Of a stretch of 64,000 nt of DNA, positions 6,278 to 61,212 are shown one piece after another. The stretch is taken from the NCBI GenBank assembly GCA_016183065.1, contig JACPFF010000006.1, positions 62,001 through 126,000 of the forward strand, written 5' to 3'. A model generated the notes under the pieces. That model ran no database searches. It worked only from the letters and a program-made list of their open reading frames with translations, and had not been told where the DNA came from. Origin of the DNA: Deltaproteobacteria bacterium (GTDB lineage: Bacteria > UBA10199 > GCA-002796325 > JACPFF01). The position numbers and the translations under genes were made by a program. Each line of letters begins with the position of its first letter. Position 1 is the stretch's first letter.

Positions 6278-6584
6278 GGAATCGCTATACACGAGCGAAT
6301 GGTCAGGTGCAATCGGGATGGGGAACGTCTGCAGGGCATTCCCATCATGAGATAGACTGCGCGGCATGTCAAAAAAAACAACGATATCTTTCAATTGGTT
6401 GCAATTCGTTCTCAATATGAGAGTCTCCATCTATTTTATTAGGTAAAAAAGTAGTTCAATATCTTTCAAAATAAATTGCCAACTATTTGTTATTACACAT
6501 ATTAATATTATTATATAAACAGGGTGTAATTAAACTCTCACTGGCATGCTCCTTGCTCTGCAGTCTGTTCATAAGGAGGATGCC
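6278..6584. promoter_or_regulatory. AT-rich divergent intergenic region
   Basis: This 307-base gap separates the ATPase gene (-) from the first M30-like gene (+). From about 6370 to 6540 it is far more AT-rich than its surroundings. On + a possible sigma-70 promoter is TTGTTA at 6487-6492 with TATATA at 6512-6517 (19-base spacer); TTGCCA at 6476-6481 is an alternative -35. No start site can be fixed by eye. The + gene has an excellent ribosome site, AAGGAGGA at 6573-6580. Confidence 0.4.
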
Positions 6585-8219
6585 ATGCAGAGAGTCGGAG
6601 AGTGGGGCATGATCGGCACGGCCGTGATACTGGTCGGTTGTGGGAGTGAAGGTGGGGGGATACCGTGGGAAGGCTTGAACGCTGGTGCAGGCCAGGCCGC
6701 GTCCGTGACGAATCAGGTCTCCAGTCCTGGGAAGATGGGAGTGGGGGATATCTATCAGCTCCTCGTGGAAAAGGACCACCATGGCGTCATCGATTTTGGT
6801 GAGGTCGATCCGGATGCGGAATTTCTCCTCTCCGTGTTAAATCTGCATGCGACGGGGGCCAGCGGGACCGTACAGCTGGCGGGAAACTTGGCCGCGCCTT
6901 CGACCGGGAAGACGGTCACGCCCGTGTTGGAAGAGGGCGCGGTGTCCGATCCCGCCGACCTCTTTCACGGGGAGCTGCGCGAGATCGAGGCGCAGATGGC
7001 CGAACAACCGTTCGAGATGCTCCCCAACGTTGGGAAGGGGGCGAGCCAGGCCCCGGTACCGCAACACGGCGCGGTAGAGACCTTTCGGGTCATTGCCGGC
7101 CTCAGTGCGACCGGAGACTTTGTGGAGCGGGACGGCGTCCTCAGCTGCATCACAGATCGTCTCCTCTGGTATCGCGATCAGGAGATCCTGACCACGTCAC
7201 CGACGGCCATGTCGGAGGCGGAACTCGACCACCTCTGTCGCGGCTTTGACGCCTCGATCGCCGAGCTGGTCGATCTCGTCGGTGTATCGTCAGATGTCAA
7301 TGGAGATGGACGGGTTACGGTCTTCGAGACCCCGCAGGTGAATCGGCTCGGTGCCACGGGGGGTGGCATGGTCACCGGTTTTTTTCTCGCGAGCGATCTC
7401 TATCCCCGCGGCCCGGGTAATCCCTCAAGCAATGCCCGGGAAATCATCTATACGCTGACGCCCGATCCGTCCGGCATCTACGGGCTCCGGATCAGCCGGG
7501 AGTTGGCCCTCCACAATTTGCTCCCTGCCGTGCTCCCGCATGAATTGTTTCATGCCATTCTCTTTCATCAACATGTCTTGCTCCGTGGCGGGGCCTCGGA
7601 AGAAGACTGGCTCAATGAGGGACTGGCGCACTTGACGGAGGATCTGGTCCGTGTCGGGATCGAAAATCCGTCCCGCTACGATCTCTATCTGCGGCGGACG
7701 TCGGTCCATCCCATTGTGACCTCGCATTCGCCGGGATTGGCCGAGCGTGGCGGTATTTTCCTCTTTCTCCGCTATCTCTTTGAACAACATCCCGAGCGCG
7801 CGGAATTTTTGCGGACATTGGTGCAGACCGATCTGACAGGGGTCGAGAATCTGGAACAAGCCTATGGGTCATTGGACGAGGGTTTCGACCAGTTCGCGGA
7901 ATTTTTTCTCCGATGGAGTGCCACGCTCGGCCTGAATGATCAGGGACTGACGCTCGATCCCTCGTTCCGGTATCAGGAGCGCGTGTGGGACCAGCTGGCG
8001 GGCGAATTCAGTGGCGTCTGCACGATCTGCAATGCCGCGGATGGACGGAATACGCTCTTGGGCGGCGTCGCACCGATGCCGTTTGGTGCGGAGACGGCAC
8101 TTTCATTGCGTCCGGCCACGCAGGCCTACTACCGGGTCTCTGCGGCACATCGGCAGATCACCCTCGCCACGAAAGATCCCAGCGGACACTATGGGGCGGT
8201 GTTGATGCGGACCCGATGA
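6585..8219 (+). CDS. M30-like zinc metalloprotease lipoprotein (copy 1)
   Basis: A 544-residue exported lipoprotein: the signal peptide ends in the lipobox ILVGC (Cys19). The C-terminal half holds a zinc-protease site HELFH (residues 319-323) followed by WLNEGLAHL with Glu345 as probable third ligand, in the arrangement of peptidase family M30 (hyicolysin type). Upstream DVNGDGRVTVFETPQVN and REIIYTLTP also match that family. The N-terminal 150 residues are not recognised. ATG 6585 sits behind AAGGAGGA at 6573-6580. A paralogue with the same spacing of zinc ligands follows at 8617, so the pair arose by tandem duplication. Target proteins are unknown; an outer-membrane-anchored protease acting on surface or environmental proteins is inference. 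Confidence 0.8.
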   Translation: MQRVGEWGMIGTAVILVGCGSEGGGIPWEGLNAGAGQAASVTNQVSSPGKMGVGDIYQLLVEKDHHGVIDFGEVDPDAEFLLSVLNLHATGASGTVQLAGNLAAPSTGKTVTPVLEEGAVSDPADLFHGELREIEAQMAEQPFEMLPNVGKGASQAPVPQHGAVETFRVIAGLSATGDFVERDGVLSCITDRLLWYRDQEILTTSPTAMSEAELDHLCRGFDASIAELVDLVGVSSDVNGDGRVTVFETPQVNRLGATGGGMVTGFFLASDLYPRGPGNPSSNAREIIYTLTPDPSGIYGLRISRELALHNLLPAVLPHELFHAILFHQHVLLRGGASEEDWLNEGLAHLTEDLVRVGIENPSRYDLYLRRTSVHPIVTSHSPGLAERGGIFLFLRYLFEQHPERAEFLRTLVQTDLTGVENLEQAYGSLDEGFDQFAEFFLRWSATLGLNDQGLTLDPSFRYQERVWDQLAGEFSGVCTICNAADGRNTLLGGVAPMPFGAETALSLRPATQAYYRVSAAHRQITLATKDPSGHYGAVLMRTR

Positions 8220-8237: not shown

Positions 8238-8394
8238 ACTATTGGGGAGCTCGCGTTCCCCAGCGCGCCCCGCGCGCGAGAGGGGGGGCTCCATCACACT
8301 CCGCAAAGTCTTCGACTTTGCTTCGCGGCCCAGCACAGCTGGGCCTTGACCCGGCTTTGCCCGTTGGGGGGGCGACGTGAGCCCCTCCAATAGT
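8238..8394 (+). repeat. Dispersed palindromic repeat, copy A
   Basis: A 157-base GC-rich element with short terminal inverted repeats, ACTATTGGGGAG on the left and CTCCAATAGT on the right. The right part (GGGGGGGCGACGTGAG to the end) is shared with the copies at 14471-14563 (opposite orientation) and 59015-59098. This copy is longest and contains extra internal hairpins (GCAAAGTC/GACTTTGC and GGCCCAG/CTGGGCC). It encodes no protein. It could be a miniature inverted-repeat element or a REP-like element. Confidence 0.75.
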
Positions 8395-11159: not shown

Positions 11160-11659
11160 TGCGTGTTCGTTCCGCGTCGGTGTGGTGGTCACTGCTGCTC
11201 GGGATTGCCTGCATCGGCATGGGGAGCGGGTGTGCGAAACCACTTGTCCGCGGCAATGTCGAGGCCATGCCACCGGTGACGAAGACGTTTTCCGCCGGAC
11301 CCAATGCCATTTATTATGGTGTCCGGTGGGCTCTGGCCGAGCGCGGCTATCCGGTCGGGTTCGAGGATCTGCATGGCGGGGTGATTACGACCGCCTGGGT
11401 GCCGGTGGGGGCGAATTCCCATTATCTCCGTCCCTTCAAGACGCCGGACTATGGGACGACCGGCGCCTATCATCAGTTGGAAGTGCGGGTGATGCCGACC
11501 GGTGGCGGAGGGACAACCGTTTCGGTTGTCTCACGCGTCAACAGTATTATTCGCGGCCTCCACTCGAGTGGACGTGAGGAGGCCGGGGTGCTGGAGGAGA
11601 TTCAACATTATCTCCATGGGAGTGGTGTGGAAGTGACCAACATCGGTGTGGAGGAGTGA
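11156..11659 (+). CDS. Small putative lipoprotein of unknown function
   Basis: A 167-residue protein with a signal peptide ending in MGSGC, so a probable lipoprotein. The mature part has FSAGPNAIYYGVRWALAERG, then a glycine-rich segment and VSVVSRVNSI; this layout resembles small alpha/beta lipoproteins of the DUF4136/DUF799 size class, but no family can be named with confidence. It starts with ATG 11156 overlapping the lgt stop (ATGA), so translation is probably coupled to lgt. ATG 11159 is an alternative. The ileS gene follows 25 bases downstream. Confidence 0.75.
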   Translation: MMRVRSASVWWSLLLGIACIGMGSGCAKPLVRGNVEAMPPVTKTFSAGPNAIYYGVRWALAERGYPVGFEDLHGGVITTAWVPVGANSHYLRPFKTPDYGTTGAYHQLEVRVMPTGGGGTTVSVVSRVNSIIRGLHSSGREEAGVLEEIQHYLHGSGVEVTNIGVEE

Positions 11660-11684
11660 CCACCACGTGATAGTGCCGGCCGCT

Positions 11685-14461
11685 ATGGATTACAAATCAA
11701 CACTCAATTTGCCACAGACGGCATTCCCCATGAAGGCGGAACTCGCGCAGCGCGAACCGCTCATGGTGGAGCGCTGGCGTGAAGGACGGGTCTACGACGC
11801 CATGCTGGCCGCGCGAAAGCTGGCCCCGCCGTTTGTGCTGCACGACGGTCCCCCCTATGCCAATGGGCACATCCACTTTGGGCACATCCTGAACAAGGTG
11901 TTGAAAGATATCGTCATCAAGTCGCGTGCCATGGCCGGGGCCTACACGCCATTTCTCCCCGGATGGGATTGTCATGGCCTGCCGATTGAATTGGCCGTCG
12001 AGAAAGGACTGGGAGGACGACATCGGGATCACGATGTGATCGCGGTGCGGAAGGCGTGCCGTGCCTATGCCGAACAGTACATCCATATCCAGCGCGAGGA
12101 GTTTCGACGCCTCGGCTGTCTGGCGGCCTGGGAGACACCCTATTGCACCATGGACTTTCGCTATCAGGCGGAGATTGCGCGGCGCTTTGCCGCCGTGGTG
12201 GAGCGGGGGGCCGTCTATAGCGGTCGGCGTCCCATCTATTGGTGCCCCTCCTGTCAGACGGCCCTTGCCGAGGCCGAAGTCGAATATGCCACGCACACCT
12301 CACCGTCCATCTACGTCAAGTTCCCGCTCACGGATATCGATGATCTTCGGGCCCGGTGGGGGATCGGCGATCCGCCGGTCTTTGTCGTGATCTGGACCAC
12401 GACCCCGTGGACGATTCCCGCAAACCTTGGCGTCGCATTGCATCCTGATCTTTCGTATAGTGCGGTGGCCGTGGACCGTGAGGTCTGGATTGTGGCCGAA
12501 GGGCGGTGCGAGGCCATGTTCCGCGACATCGGTCGCACCGACTATCGCGTCCTTGGGCCCGTCCGCTCGGCAGATCTGGAACGCCGCCATGCCCGCCATC
12601 CGCTCGTGGACCGCCCATCGCTCGTGATGCTCGGGACCATGGTCACGCTCGACGCCGGGAGCGGCTGTGTCCATGTGGCGCCAGGGCACGGGGAAGAAGA
12701 CTTTGCCCTCGGCATGACCTACGGCCTGGAGGCCTTTGCGCCGATCGATGACCGCGGGGCCTTCACGCCAGACGTTGGACTGCCATGGCTCGTCGGGATG
12801 AACACCGGGACGGCCAATCCGCGGATTCTCGAGGCATTGCGGGCGGAGGACCGGTTGATTCACGCCGGGAAGGTCGAACACCAATATCCCCATTGTTGGC
12901 GATGCAAACAACCGATCCTCTTTCGTGTCACCGAGCAGTGGTTTGTCTCCATGGAGAGCACAGGGTTGCGGCGTGCGGCCTTGGCAGCGATCGATGCCGT
13001 GACATGGATTCCGGCGTGGGGGAGAGCGCGGATCCACGGGATGATGGAAAACCGGCCGGACTGGTGCATTTCGCGCCAACGGAGTTGGGGCGTCCCCCTT
13101 ATTGCGGTGCGGTGCGGAGCGTGCGGTGCGCGGAGCACGACGGCCGATTTTGTCCGTCGCGTGGCGGATCGCATCGCCACCGCCGGGGCCGACTGTTGGT
13201 ACACCGAACCGTTGAGCGCGCTCTTGCCGCCAGAGTATCGCTGTCCGCACTGCCACGAGAGCGGGGCCTTCACCAAAGAATACGATATCCTCGATGTCTG
13301 GTTCGACTCCGGGAGTTCCTTTGCCGCAGTCATCCGCCAGATGCTCGGGATGCAGGGACCGGCGGATCTCTATCTGGAGGGGAGCGATCAGCACCGGGGA
13401 TGGTTCCATACCTCGTTGCTGGTGGGACTCGAGACCGAAGGGGTCGCGCCCTATCGGAGCGTGTTGACCCACGGTTTTGTGGTCGATGGCGAGGGGAAGA
13501 AATATTCAAAGTCGGCCAAGAATTATCTCCCCCCCGACCAGGTGCTCTCGCGCTATGGGGCCGAAATCCTGCGACTCTGGGTCGCGGCGGAGGATTATAG
13601 CGGGAAATCATCACGCGATTGGCCGATGCCTATCGGAAGATCCGGAATACCTGGCGGTTTCTCTTGGGGAACCTCCACGATTTTTCTCCCGCCCGTGATC
13701 GCGTGCCCTATGCGGCGCTCGAGTCGCTTGACCGGTGGATTCTTGCCGAGAGCAATCGACTCGTGGTCCGCTGTCGCCGCGCCTACGACGGATACGAGTT
13801 TCACCATGTCTACCACGCGGTAAACACCTTTTGCACCGTGCAACTGAGCGCGCGCTATCTCGATATTTGCAAGGACCGTCTCTACTGCGAGGGCGCGGCG
13901 AGTGTCACACGCCGCGCTGCGCAGACGACGATGTGGTGCGTGGGAGAGACGCTCGTACGCATGATGGCGCCGATCCTTTCGTTTACGGCCGAAGAGGTGT
14001 GGGACCATCTCCCCGGCGGCGGGACCGAGCAGGGATCGGTTTTTCTCGCGCCGCTTCCGACGATCGTGGCCGAGTGGAGCGATGACCCCCTCATCGCGCG
14101 GTGGAACCGCCTCTGGGAGGTGCGGGAGATCGTCAACAAGAGTCTGGAGACGGCACGGGCGGAGAAGCGCATTGGCAATGCCCTGGGGGCGATGGTCACC
14201 ATTGCCTGTCCGGAAGAGTCGCGCGGATTTCTCGCCTCGTTTGGCCCACAGTTGGCCGACCTCTTGATCGTCTCCGAAATTCGCTTTGACACTGGCCCCG
14301 AGGCTGCCGCAGGAGAGACCGCTGGCGACGTGGTCGTGCAGGTGGCACCGGCCGCGGGGAAGAAGTGTGTCCGCTGCTGGAAATGGAGTCGCGCAGTGGG
14401 GACGCATGCCGGGCATCCGGAGCTGTGCGAGCGGTGCACCACGGTGGTGATGCATGCCTGA
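11685..14461 (+). CDS. ileS: Isoleucyl-tRNA synthetase, single-base frameshift
   Basis: Class I synthetase that charges tRNA-Ile. The N-terminus DYKSTLNLPQTAFPMKAELA, the HIGH signature as HIHFGH, the second class I motif as KYSKS (KMSKS in most) and the C-terminal zinc site CVRCWKW...CERC are all present. The frame that starts at ATG 11685 runs through LRLWVAAEDYSG and then goes wrong at about 13602-13605; the proper continuation (RLADAYRKIRNTW) is in another frame to 14461. Restoring one G in the GGG at 13602-13604 joins both parts exactly: 2777 bases become 2778, or 925 residues, normal for the family. Because the enzyme is essential, an assembly or sequencing error is more likely than a real mutation, unless another ileS exists. 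Confidence 0.93.
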
Positions 14462-14470
14462 CTTGCGTCT

Positions 14471-14563
14471 ACTATTGGAGGGGCTCACGTCGCCCCCCCA
14501 ACGGGCAAAGCCCGTTGGGCCCCCCCCTCTCGCGCGCTGTGCGCGCTGGGGAACTTCCAACAC
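14471..14563 (-). repeat. Dispersed palindromic repeat, copy B
   Basis: Reverse-oriented copy of the element at 8238-8394, filling the gap between ileS and lspA. It begins with ACTATTGGAG (14471-14480) and includes a perfect 10-base hairpin, CCCAACGGGC/GCCCGTTGGG, at 14498-14520. The 60-odd bases from the G run to the ATAGT end are nearly identical to copy C at 59015-59098. The far end (ACTTCCAACAC) is a degenerate partner of the terminal repeat. No coding content. Confidence 0.75.
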
Positions 14564-14575
14564 GGGGCGACCGCA

Positions 14576-15100
14576 ATGAAATTTGCCTATCGTCCCCTCT
14601 GCATTGTCACGCCGCTCGTCTTTCTCCTCGACCAATGGACGAAATGGATGGTTGTTCGCCATATTCCCCTCGGTCATGGCCTGGCCATCCTCCCGGGGTA
14701 CATCGACCTCGTCCACGTGCGGAATCGCGGGGCGGCCTTCGGGCTCTTTGCCGGCGGGGACTCCCCGTGGCGGGCGCCATTTTTTTATCTCGTCTCCATC
14801 GTGGCCGTCGGGGTCATTCTCTGGATTGTCCGCCATCTGCGCGAGACGGAACGCCTGATGGCGGTGACCATGGCGCTGATCCTCGGGGGGATCTTTGGCA
14901 ACCTCCTCGATCGGCTCCGGCTCGGTGCGGTCACCGATTTTTTGTCCTGCCACTTTCGTGATGTCGTGATCGACGGGACGCTCCTCGGGTTTCGTATCCG
15001 GTTTCCCCTCGACTGGCCCGCCTTCAATGTTGCCGATAGCGCCATCACGATCAGTATGCTACTGTTGGCGTACCATATTGTGCGATCTCCACACCAGTGA
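14576..15100 (+). CDS. lspA: Lipoprotein signal peptidase II
   Basis: A 174-residue inner-membrane aspartyl protease that removes the signal peptide from diacylated prolipoproteins. Four hydrophobic helices are visible. The catalytic aspartates lie in GNLLDRLRLGAVTDF and in WPAFNVADSAI, both classic LspA motifs, and VHVRNRGAAFGLF matches the family. It lies 12 bases past repeat copy B, which separates it from ileS, and is followed six bases later by the second lgt-like gene. Clustering of lspA with lgt-like genes is consistent with one lipoprotein-processing operon. Confidence 0.95.
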   Translation: MKFAYRPLCIVTPLVFLLDQWTKWMVVRHIPLGHGLAILPGYIDLVHVRNRGAAFGLFAGGDSPWRAPFFYLVSIVAVGVILWIVRHLRETERLMAVTMALILGGIFGNLLDRLRLGAVTDFLSCHFRDVVIDGTLLGFRIRFPLDWPAFNVADSAITISMLLLAYHIVRSPHQ

Positions 15101-59014: not shown

Positions 59015-59098
59015 GGGGCCCAGCGCGCACCGCGCGCGAGAGGGGGGGACCCAACGGGCTTTGCCCGTTGGGGGGGCGACGTGAGCCCCTCCAATAGT
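59015..59098 (+). repeat. Dispersed palindromic repeat, copy C
   Basis: Third copy of the element at 8238 and 14471, upstream of the metallo-hydrolase stop and beyond the TPP riboswitch. From CGCGCGAGAG to AATAGT it matches copy B at nearly every base. The left end, before CAGCGCGCACC, differs (GTCGTGGGGCC). The 10-base hairpin CCCAACGGGC/GCCCGTTGGG is kept. The remaining bases of the 320-base gap 58787-59106 hold the riboswitch, its leader and no gene. Confidence 0.75.
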
Positions 59099-59106
59099 CG
59101 CCCTGT

Positions 59107-59883
59107 TCACGCCGTCATGAACGGCACGTCGAGCCCCTCACCCGGCTCGACAATATGGAGCCGATGCTGCAGATTGCGCTGTGACGACAATCGTGCGAGG
59201 CGCTGGATCTCCCGCCGGCTGCCACCGAGTCCGTGAAAGGTCCCCCAGTGGATCGGCACGGCGTGCGCGGCCTGCAGGTCACTCATGGCCCGCAACCATT
59301 CTTCGGCGTTGATGGGGCGGGCAGGAGAGGCCCAACGCGGGAGAAATCCGCCCAAGGGGAGCAACGCGAGTGCCACAGGTCCCAGGTGTCCGACTTCGGC
59401 AAAGTGGGTGCCATAGCTCGAATCCGCGGCATAATAAAGGGCGTGGGATCCCCACTGGATTCGGTAGCCGTTCACCCCGCGAAAACGCCAGCCCGGAATC
59501 AGTCGTCCCCCATAATGTCGCACGGGAACCGGGGTAATCGTCAGTGTGGCTGTCAGGGGATGGGAGATCCAATGCGCGACTTCGAGCACGGGATTTTGGA
59601 TGAACGGATGGAGTGCCGCTGCAGTGCCGGTAGGGACAATCATCGGGACGTCGCGCGGGAAATACTTGAATGCCGAGATGTCGAGGTGATCATAATGCGT
59701 ATGCGTAAGGAGGACCGCTGTGATCGGCGGCAGCATGGCGGGATCGACCGTGAGCGACTTGCATCGCCGCGCCCAGAGAACGCGGGTGCCAAAATGCGGG
59801 TCGGTGAGGAGTGCTTCGCCGGCCATCTCGATCAGGCATGTGGCATGACCAATGTAGGTAATATGTGCCGGTGCATCCCCCAT
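59107..59883 (-). CDS. Metallo-beta-lactamase-fold hydrolase (UlaG/NAPE-PLD-like)
   Basis: A 258-residue metal-dependent hydrolase. The N-terminal TYIGHATCLIEMAGEALLTDP and the metal site THTHYDHLDI are typical, followed by ADSSYGTHFAEVG and HWGTFHGLG with the last ligand histidine. Relatives are N-acyl-phosphatidylethanolamine phospholipase D-like proteins and UlaG lactonases; the substrate is unknown. Family similarity starts at ATG 59883, although the frame is open far upstream; that part is antisense to alr. No clear ribosome site is seen. Confidence 0.85.
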   Translation of the reverse strand: MGDAPAHITYIGHATCLIEMAGEALLTDPHFGTRVLWARRCKSLTVDPAMLPPITAVLLTHTHYDHLDISAFKYFPRDVPMIVPTGTAAALHPFIQNPVLEVAHWISHPLTATLTITPVPVRHYGGRLIPGWRFRGVNGYRIQWGSHALYYAADSSYGTHFAEVGHLGPVALALLPLGGFLPRWASPARPINAEEWLRAMSDLQAAHAVPIHWGTFHGLGGSRREIQRLARLSSQRNLQHRLHIVEPGEGLDVPFMTA

Positions 59884-59994
59884 CGCCGAACGGTTGTATG
59901 ATTCAGACGTCGCGGATGGCAAGGAGAAAAGGACGACCACAAAAGGAGAAAAGGACGACTTGCACTTGTCTCCCGACCGTTCTACAACGTCCCG

Positions 59995-61212
59995 ATGATC
60001 GACACCGTCGTGCACACGTCGAACATGGGACACCACCTTCGTCCGACATGGGTCGAAATTCATCAGTCCGCCTTGCAACGGAATTTCCACGTGGTGCGTG
60101 AGAGTGTGGGCCAGGCGATCGGGATCATCGCCATGGTCAAGGCCGATGCCTATGGGCATGGGGCGGTCCCTGTTGCGCGCTGGTGTGTGGAGGCTGGTGC
60201 AGAGGCCCTGGGCGTTGCCACCTTGGAAGAGGGGATCGAACTGCGCGATGCCGGTCTGACCTGTCCGATTCTCGTCATGTGTGGACTCGCAGGACAGGGG
60301 GCGGTGGCAGCGGACGTTGCTGTGGCACAGAATTTCACCTGCGTGGTCCATTCCGCAGAGACGCTCCGCCTCTTGGACACGGCGGCAAAGCGCCGCAGCA
60401 GCGCGGCGTCGGTCCATCTCAAGATCGATACCGGGATGACCCGGATGGGGATGCGACCGGAATCCCTCATGCATCTGCTCGATGCGCTGGACCAGTCCCC
60501 CGCGGTCCGGGTCGCTGGGGTCATGACGCACTTGGCCCACGTGGTGGATCGGGAGAGTACAGCGCGGCAAGTGGCGTGCTTTACGGAAACGGCGGCGATC
60601 ATTCGTCGCCATCTCCGCGGCCCCCTCGTGTGGCATCTCGGGAATAGCGCAGCGGTGTTGGAACGCCGTCTTGGACGGGAGGAGTGGTGTGCCCCGTTTG
60701 CCCTGGCCGCCGGGGATCGTTTCGCGGTACGCCCCGGGATTATGCTCTATGGCATTCTCCCGTTTTCCAAATATGCCGGTGGTACGCCGCTTGCACCGGT
60801 CATGTCGCTCAAGAGCCGCTGGATCCTGATCAAGCACGTCCCTGCGGACACGGCTGTGAGTTACAGCGGGACATGGCGTACGGCACGGCCGTCGCGACTG
60901 GCGGTGCTCCCCGTGGGCTATGCCGACGGCTATCCCTGGGGATTGGCCAATCACGGCGTGGTCCTCGCGTGCGGGCGTCGGCTGCCGGTGGTGGGACGCG
61001 TCACCATGGATATGACGATCTGCGATGTCACCGATCTTGCGCAGGCGCGCGTCGGTGACACCGTGACCCTGCTCGGTGCCGAGGGAAACGATGTGATGAC
61101 GGCGGAAGAGATGGCCGAGCGGTGCCAGACGATTCCCTACGAGATTGTCTGCCGCATGTCGAAACGGGTCCCGCGCATCTATCTCCCTGCTCTGTCATCG
61201 GAGGCCCCGTAA
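59995..61212 (+). CDS. alr: Alanine racemase
   Basis: A 405-residue PLP enzyme that makes D-alanine for peptidoglycan. The PLP lysine is in MVKADAYGHG (Lys49), the substrate-loop lysine segment is LKIDTGMTRMG, GIMLYGILP matches the family, and the C-terminal VGRVTMDMTICDVTDL is intact. It is a little longer than usual at the N-terminus, so ATG 60025 is an alternative start; neither ATG has a good ribosome site. Its stop overlaps the mlaE start by one base. Confidence 0.94.
   Translation: MIDTVVHTSNMGHHLRPTWVEIHQSALQRNFHVVRESVGQAIGIIAMVKADAYGHGAVPVARWCVEAGAEALGVATLEEGIELRDAGLTCPILVMCGLAGQGAVAADVAVAQNFTCVVHSAETLRLLDTAAKRRSSAASVHLKIDTGMTRMGMRPESLMHLLDALDQSPAVRVAGVMTHLAHVVDRESTARQVACFTETAAIIRRHLRGPLVWHLGNSAAVLERRLGREEWCAPFALAAGDRFAVRPGIMLYGILPFSKYAGGTPLAPVMSLKSRWILIKHVPADTAVSYSGTWRTARPSRLAVLPVGYADGYPWGLANHGVVLACGRRLPVVGRVTMDMTICDVTDLAQARVGDTVTLLGAEGNDVMTAEEMAERCQTIPYEIVCRMSKRVPRIYLPALSSEAP

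Follow-up and report, generated by a model that had tools for sequence, protein, structure and literature searches.

The segments that share a palindromic core in the window (the whole 64-kb stretch of DNA analyzed here) are most probably copies of a miniature mobile element, 78-80 bp long, that is GC-rich and non-autonomous and forms hairpins, a reading to which we assign a probability of roughly 0.8. The element is an insertion, dispersed and repeatedly inserted, and its family is widespread over several phyla of uncultured bacteria.

Anatomy of the element and its copies in the window

Scanning the window with a covariance model of the element, R1, returned exactly three copies: A at 8259-8393 (minus strand, E = 9e-15), B at 14472-14550 (plus strand, E = 2e-31) and C at 59019-59097 (minus strand, E = 4e-30). 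The three shared segments described in an earlier sequence-only reading of this DNA are real (Table 1). Copies B and C, described there as nearly identical, share 98% identity over 80 nt, the length of the unit common to the three segments, and lie 44 kb apart in inverted orientation. Copy A matches them in blocks of 43 and 39 nt separated by an internal insert of ~60 nt; its core is found in two pieces (~8353-8394 and ~8255-8288) with an element of a second family, M3, nested between them. The ends are also as described earlier. Copy A carries two inverted ACTATT ends, the extra one being ACTATTGGGGAG at 8238-8254, whereas the simple copies B and C have one such end and no terminal inverted repeats.

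Table 1. Positions of the element copies in the window.
Feature	Position	Strand	Basis or remark
Copy A, composite core element	8238..8394	-	Sequence comparison and covariance model R1
M3, second double-hairpin element nested in the second hairpin of copy A	8289..8352	-	Boundaries approximate
Copy B, simple core element (ACTATTGGAGGGGCTCACGTCGCCCCCC...GCGCGCTGGGG)	14471..14550	+
Copy C, simple core element	59019..59098	-	98% identical to copy B

Copy A lies 18 bp past the stop codon of the ORF at 6546-8219. The CTATT end of copy B is 9 bp past the stop codon (14461) of the 3' part of ileS, with the lspA start at 14576, and that of copy C is 8 bp from, and facing, the stop codon of a metallo-beta-lactamase-fold ORF (59107-60954, minus strand). 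No direct repeats above chance surround the three window copies. The ileS gene itself (11646-14461, plus strand) appears to be split over two frames, encoding the catalytic domain (11646-13823) and the anticodon-binding domain (13619-14461), which points to a frameshift or an assembly error near 13.6-13.8 kb.

The core consensus reads CTATTATA GGGGCTCGCGTCGCCCCC TCCACCGGC-AAA-GCCGGTGGA GCCTCCCCCTC TCGCTCGC-TTT-GCTCGCTGG. One terminus is fixed, with CTATTATA abutting GGGG, and corresponds to TATAATAG on the sense strand. Copies hardly differ in the first hairpin and the linker, while the second stem varies freely with compensation and the third hairpin is likewise variable between copies. In the second stem 96.2% of the cells are paired, and double changes number 91, compared with 19 in shuffled alignments and 4-13 in slid controls. 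G-U pairs occupy about 0.5% of the cells, and double changes far exceed G-U changes. The near-absence of G-U pairs suggests that the palindrome is maintained at the DNA level and is conserved as DNA. Conservation as a structured RNA, which had been raised earlier, is disfavored by this excess of double changes and by an Rfam scan of the window in which tRNA alone matched.

At four loci in the set (L054, L093, L122, and L144), ORFs heading towards the CTATT end terminate within the CTATTATAG-like terminus of the element, which therefore seems to supply their stop codon.

Copy number, insertion sites and orientation

Searching the draft genome that contains the window (G000, 1.97 Mb) with the 84-nt core gave 63 BLAST matches, and R1 found at least 103 copies. 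Repetition on this scale far exceeds chance. The expectation of many copies per genome is borne out, and confinement of the element to the three window copies is excluded. Within the class, R1 detected copies in 24 of 46 genomes, with numbers ranging from 0 to at least 103 per genome (G024, 76; G028, 21; G033, 18; G001, 13; G014, 9; zero in many others). A pattern scan of GTDB representatives returned, among the matches listed, MAGs labelled Nitrospirae (including Ca. Troglogloeales) as well as Syntrophus/Syntrophorhabdales, Deltaproteobacteria and Bdellovibrionales MAGs; viral contigs, plasmids and phages searched for the core element gave no match. The genomes in question are mostly, if not all, assembled from metagenomes, and single loci could therefore be misassembled, yet the same geometry recurs in many genomes. 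We propose that the element spreads horizontally across lineages, helped by homologous recombination of its flanks.

Evidence for insertion comes from two genomes of one genus. Five loci are filled in G019, whereas the same genes are free of the element in G007; one of these copies (L032) lies in frame in a PBP1A-like protein. Together with the unrelated flanks of the many copies in G000, the near-identity of B and C, and near-identical flanking duplications in relatives, these empty sites bear out the earlier proposal of a miniature mobile element that is still spreading.

The copies show a marked bias in orientation. Between co-directional neighbors, called with the element masked, 106 copies are in the sense and 33 in the antisense orientation (p = 4e-10); genes were called by a simple ORF method that may misplace some of them, although the bias is large. 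A separate, cruder classification of intergenic copies gave 51 sense and 17 antisense. The bias could reflect selection instead of insertion. This sense bias in relatives, and the position of G000 copies a few bases past stop codons, would suit a cis-acting element (a terminator, an mRNA stabilizer or a chromosome organizer) that is selectively maintained and is not selfish DNA. We consider such a role very unlikely: no T-tract follows the hairpins, copies lie within leuS- and rsmA-type frames, and copy number varies across the class from none to over a hundred, with almost none in G007 and seven in its congener G019.

In G033 (L094, L095, L102, and L103) the core forms part of a larger dispersed repeat, ~290 bp in length, whose inverted ends are ACAATTCAGTCTCGG / CCGAAACTGAATTGT, indicating that it also hitchhikes in another miniature element.

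In-frame copies, the second family and composites

Of 173 copies in the relatives, 21 are embedded in open frames that continue for 240 nt or more to either side, a few of these 21 being the same locus counted twice. Nineteen of the 21 are on one strand and nearly all are in one reading frame, which translates as xSExxEREGEAPxALPxEGATRAPx and adds about 26 residues. The peptides predicted from the elements in LeuRS/DnaX-type proteins are of the EGEAPTALPAEGATR or GQDPALPGR type. Set against a solved structure, SufS has 35 extra residues cleanly inserted where the element lies (query 328 to 364, chain 329 to 330); in RsmA and LeuRS, the segments at the element do not align with solved structures. 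Other in-frame hosts, recognized by eye, are MetRS, an Era-like GTPase, a GltD-like protein, a molybdopterin oxidoreductase and a RecB-like protein with two in-frame copies. The translated frames show that in many relatives the element is read through, as predicted protein, within conserved proteins.

The coding frame requires CGA where some copies have TGA. The CGA variant is present in 15 of 16 in-frame copies and in 101 of 148 others (p = 0.04). Copies in G000 mostly have TGA (CACGTC instead of CGCGTC), and the ones inspected by eye lie mainly in spacers. With TGA in its coding frame, the common G000 version would be mainly a spacer element, often lying a few bases past stop codons. Surviving insertions would be those between genes, those in frame, and those in which a duplicated target restores the gene end. 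The element may offer new peptide segments a route into essential proteins, and gene models and alignments drawn from these MAGs contain foreign inserts of about 19-40 residues.

The family nested in copy A, with the consensus GTCAAGGCCCAGCTTTGCTGGGCCGCGAAGCAAAGTCGAAGACTTTGCGGAGTATAATAG, also occurs free-standing in relatives. M3 is 57-60 nt long with the consensus GTCAAGGCCCAGC-TTT-GCTGGGCCGCGAAGCAAAGTC-GAA-GACTTTGCGGAGTATAATAG and reaches up to 39 matches in G024. The dnaX gene of that genome (L349, contig 131, 5200-6900) contains three in-frame copies of this 57-bp element, unrelated to the core, two of which stand in tandem ahead of the zinc-binding motif. Aligned with structures of E. coli DnaX, the G024 protein shows gaps, of about 40 residues and of exactly 19. 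GlmS in relatives carries one in-frame M3 copy.

Many core copies in G000 are followed by further hairpin modules in a fixed order, and two of these modules, M3 and M2, are free-standing elements in relatives. The core/M3 junction of copy A recurs at many loci, which makes it probable that the composite is amplified as a whole. The G000 element would have merged with other hairpin modules into composites, each amplifying as one. A third hairpin module, ACTTCCTCGTCCACCCGC..GCGGGTACCCGGACTCGGTCGTCG (L339-L344), is dispersed in G001, G002, G003, G010, and G014. M3 and the core are unrelated in sequence and have similar, TATAATAG-like 3' ends; this shared end may be what a single mover recognizes.

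Flanking repeats, candidate movers and known systems

Direct repeats flank 17 of 214 copies (about 8%) above the 99.8% level of mismatched pairs. There is no target duplication of a fixed short length: copies have either none or one of 17-61 bp, which abuts the CTATTATA end. In 16 of the 17 cases the left repeat copy ends 4-12 nt before the GGGG at the end of the element. This left repeat is truncated at the element, while the other is continuous with the gene or tRNA. Fresh repeats are identical or nearly so (22/22, 23/23, 29/29, 42/43, and 60/61); L179, L181, and L247 have identical duplications. Codon differences in the older ones comprise 28 synonymous and 7 nonsynonymous changes. A neutral relic is expected to change mostly nonsynonymously, and both repeat copies therefore look like alleles of living genes; plain target duplication followed by neutral decay is disfavored as the origin of the long repeats. 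From these differences we infer one of two events: homologous recombination with alleles that lack the insertion, or the arrival of a foreign tail integrated along with the element. Inserted alleles would pass between strains by homologous recombination of their flanks, and this passage is our proposed source of the synonymous differences between the two copies of a duplicated tail. Essentially no flanking duplications were found in the 35 copies of M3. At one locus of G019 (L127, the same as L165) the rplL 3' end occurs three times in succession, with differing synonymous codons and stop codons.

The geometry of the repeats also invites an account by homology-facilitated illegitimate recombination, in which incoming related-strain DNA that ends at the element recombines through the homologous gene tail and is joined, end to end, at the element terminus, giving the order foreign tail, element, own tail. 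The gene-proximal repeat is indeed intact, the repeat next to CTATTATA is cut short precisely at the element border, and the repeats differ mostly synonymously, as would alleles of different strains. We judge this account unlikely nonetheless, given the identical duplications at the three loci named above, the lack of any duplication at most copies, and the in-frame insertions without duplications. Duplications at only 8% of copies may come from a side process instead of the mechanism of insertion itself. For the miniature mobile element, we suppose that insertion proceeds mostly without target duplication and at times with a long, variable one.

Genes matching Y1_Tnp are present in 35 of 40 genomes, the window's own included. 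This is a point in favor of a REP/REPIN/BIME element mobilized by a REP-associated Y1 tyrosine transposase (RAYT), as are the short, intergenic and often composite palindromes. However, no element flanks the Y1 loci examined (the best locus per genome plus two loci in G000), and the closest copy in the window's own genome lies roughly 1.2 kb past the Y1 match. The two are also uncoupled in distribution: G036 and G038 carry the element without a Y1 match, while G003 has eight Y1 genes and no element. Long flanking duplications, such as the 17-61 bp repeats seen here, do not fit IS200/IS605 insertion, and the 81-copy alignment has no GTAG-type tag at a hairpin end. With Y1 loci neither flanked by the element nor tracking its copy number, Y1_Tnp/RAYT was rejected as the mover, and mobilization of this kind appears improbable. 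The REP/BIME-type label of the sequence-only reading is accordingly not upheld: the element has no GTAG tag, and no Y1/RAYT gene adjoins it among the loci examined.

SINE-like retrotransposition, with the element RNA priming at a nicked target, would leave insertions that are fixed at the 3' end, ragged at the 5' end and accompanied by variable target duplications. The fixed TATAATAG end, the variable spacer at the other end, the range of duplication lengths and the sense bias all resemble this outcome. On the other hand, a search for RVT_1 gave no match in four draft genomes rich in the element (G001, G014, G024, and G033, with 13, 9, 76, and 18 copies), the stems covary without G-U pairs, pointing to DNA, and most copies have no duplication. 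Such a mechanism is very improbable indeed. Clustering of all ORFs around 214 loci gave only kinases, ABC transporters and housekeeping genes as recurrent neighbors, and these searches found no linked Y1 transposase, reverse transcriptase, other linked gene or parent IS. We favor movement of the miniature element as folded DNA, through an unlinked enzyme acting in trans and supplied by the host or a third party.

To our knowledge, in-frame palindromic elements have been treated mainly as an oddity of Rickettsia and Wolbachia, with no mover known since their discovery. A literature search for the present family returned only papers on RPE, REP, MITE and mitochondrial hairpin elements. The Rickettsia palindromic elements (RPE; reviewed in PMC2229807) are likewise palindromic miniature elements, both intergenic and in frame in conserved protein genes, and also in RNA genes, with no known transposase and uncertain target duplication. 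RPE-4 and RPE-6 are CGTC-REPs, characterized by a terminal CGTC, an 8-9 bp stem starting with AT pairs and a CCA tail (PMC3733652). In contrast, the 81-copy alignment has CGTC only internally, in a loop, and no AT-starting 8-9 bp stem with a CCA tail. The present elements have no sequence relation to RPE, are shorter (57-80 bp compared with 105-146 bp), occur in several phyla, sometimes with long flanking duplications, and fuse several families into composites.

Yeast mitochondrial GC clusters and the double-hairpin and repetitive hairpin elements of fungal and sponge mtDNA (PMC4478555, PMC2800124) are also GC-rich, sporadically present hairpins that lie in genes without removal, have modules that are merged and shuffled, are exchanged by recombination in their flanks and have no known mover. 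The present elements share their variable stems and merging modules, a likeness and not a descent as that group is defined in mitochondria; they differ in residing on bacterial chromosomes, in forming one conserved family across phyla, and in target duplications of up to 61 bp, compared with 2-3 nt in mitochondrial GC clusters. REP/REPIN/BIME elements with RAYT (PMC2817692, PMC3116915) are likewise short, high-copy extragenic palindromes in composite arrangements; the present elements differ in having neither the GTAG tag nor an adjacent RAYT, and in their in-frame coding copies and one-sided conserved terminus. Bacterial MITEs (Correia, ERIC, RUP; PMC2229807) are non-autonomous, under 200 bp and in some cases read in frame, whereas the present elements are GC-rich, lack true terminal inverted repeats in simple copies and a fixed short target duplication, and have no parent IS that we could find. 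By sequence, then, the element belongs with neither the GTAG-REPs nor the CGTC-REPs/RPE; in the way it works, it resembles RPE and the mitochondrial GC clusters and double-hairpin elements. We file the core and M3 as putative new families of protein-coding palindromic elements, marked by a broad phyletic spread, fusion of modules and long repeats at their flanks.

A broader conjecture, which we advance tentatively and think more apt to be wrong than right, is a cross-phylum guild of double-hairpin elements. It would comprise at least two unrelated families with a TATAATAG-like 3' end that insert sense-wise into transcribed genes by an undescribed mechanism able to duplicate 17-61 bp, to rebuild the 3' end of a gene with a different tail allele, and to colonize essential genes without killing the host. 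Abundant families with hundreds of copies, sharp ends, empty sites and fresh duplications in several uncultured phyla make the insertion mechanism testable by comparison. Homologous cinA/thpR-type neighbors occur at four loci (L099, L116, L166, and L229), by coincidence or as a hot spot.
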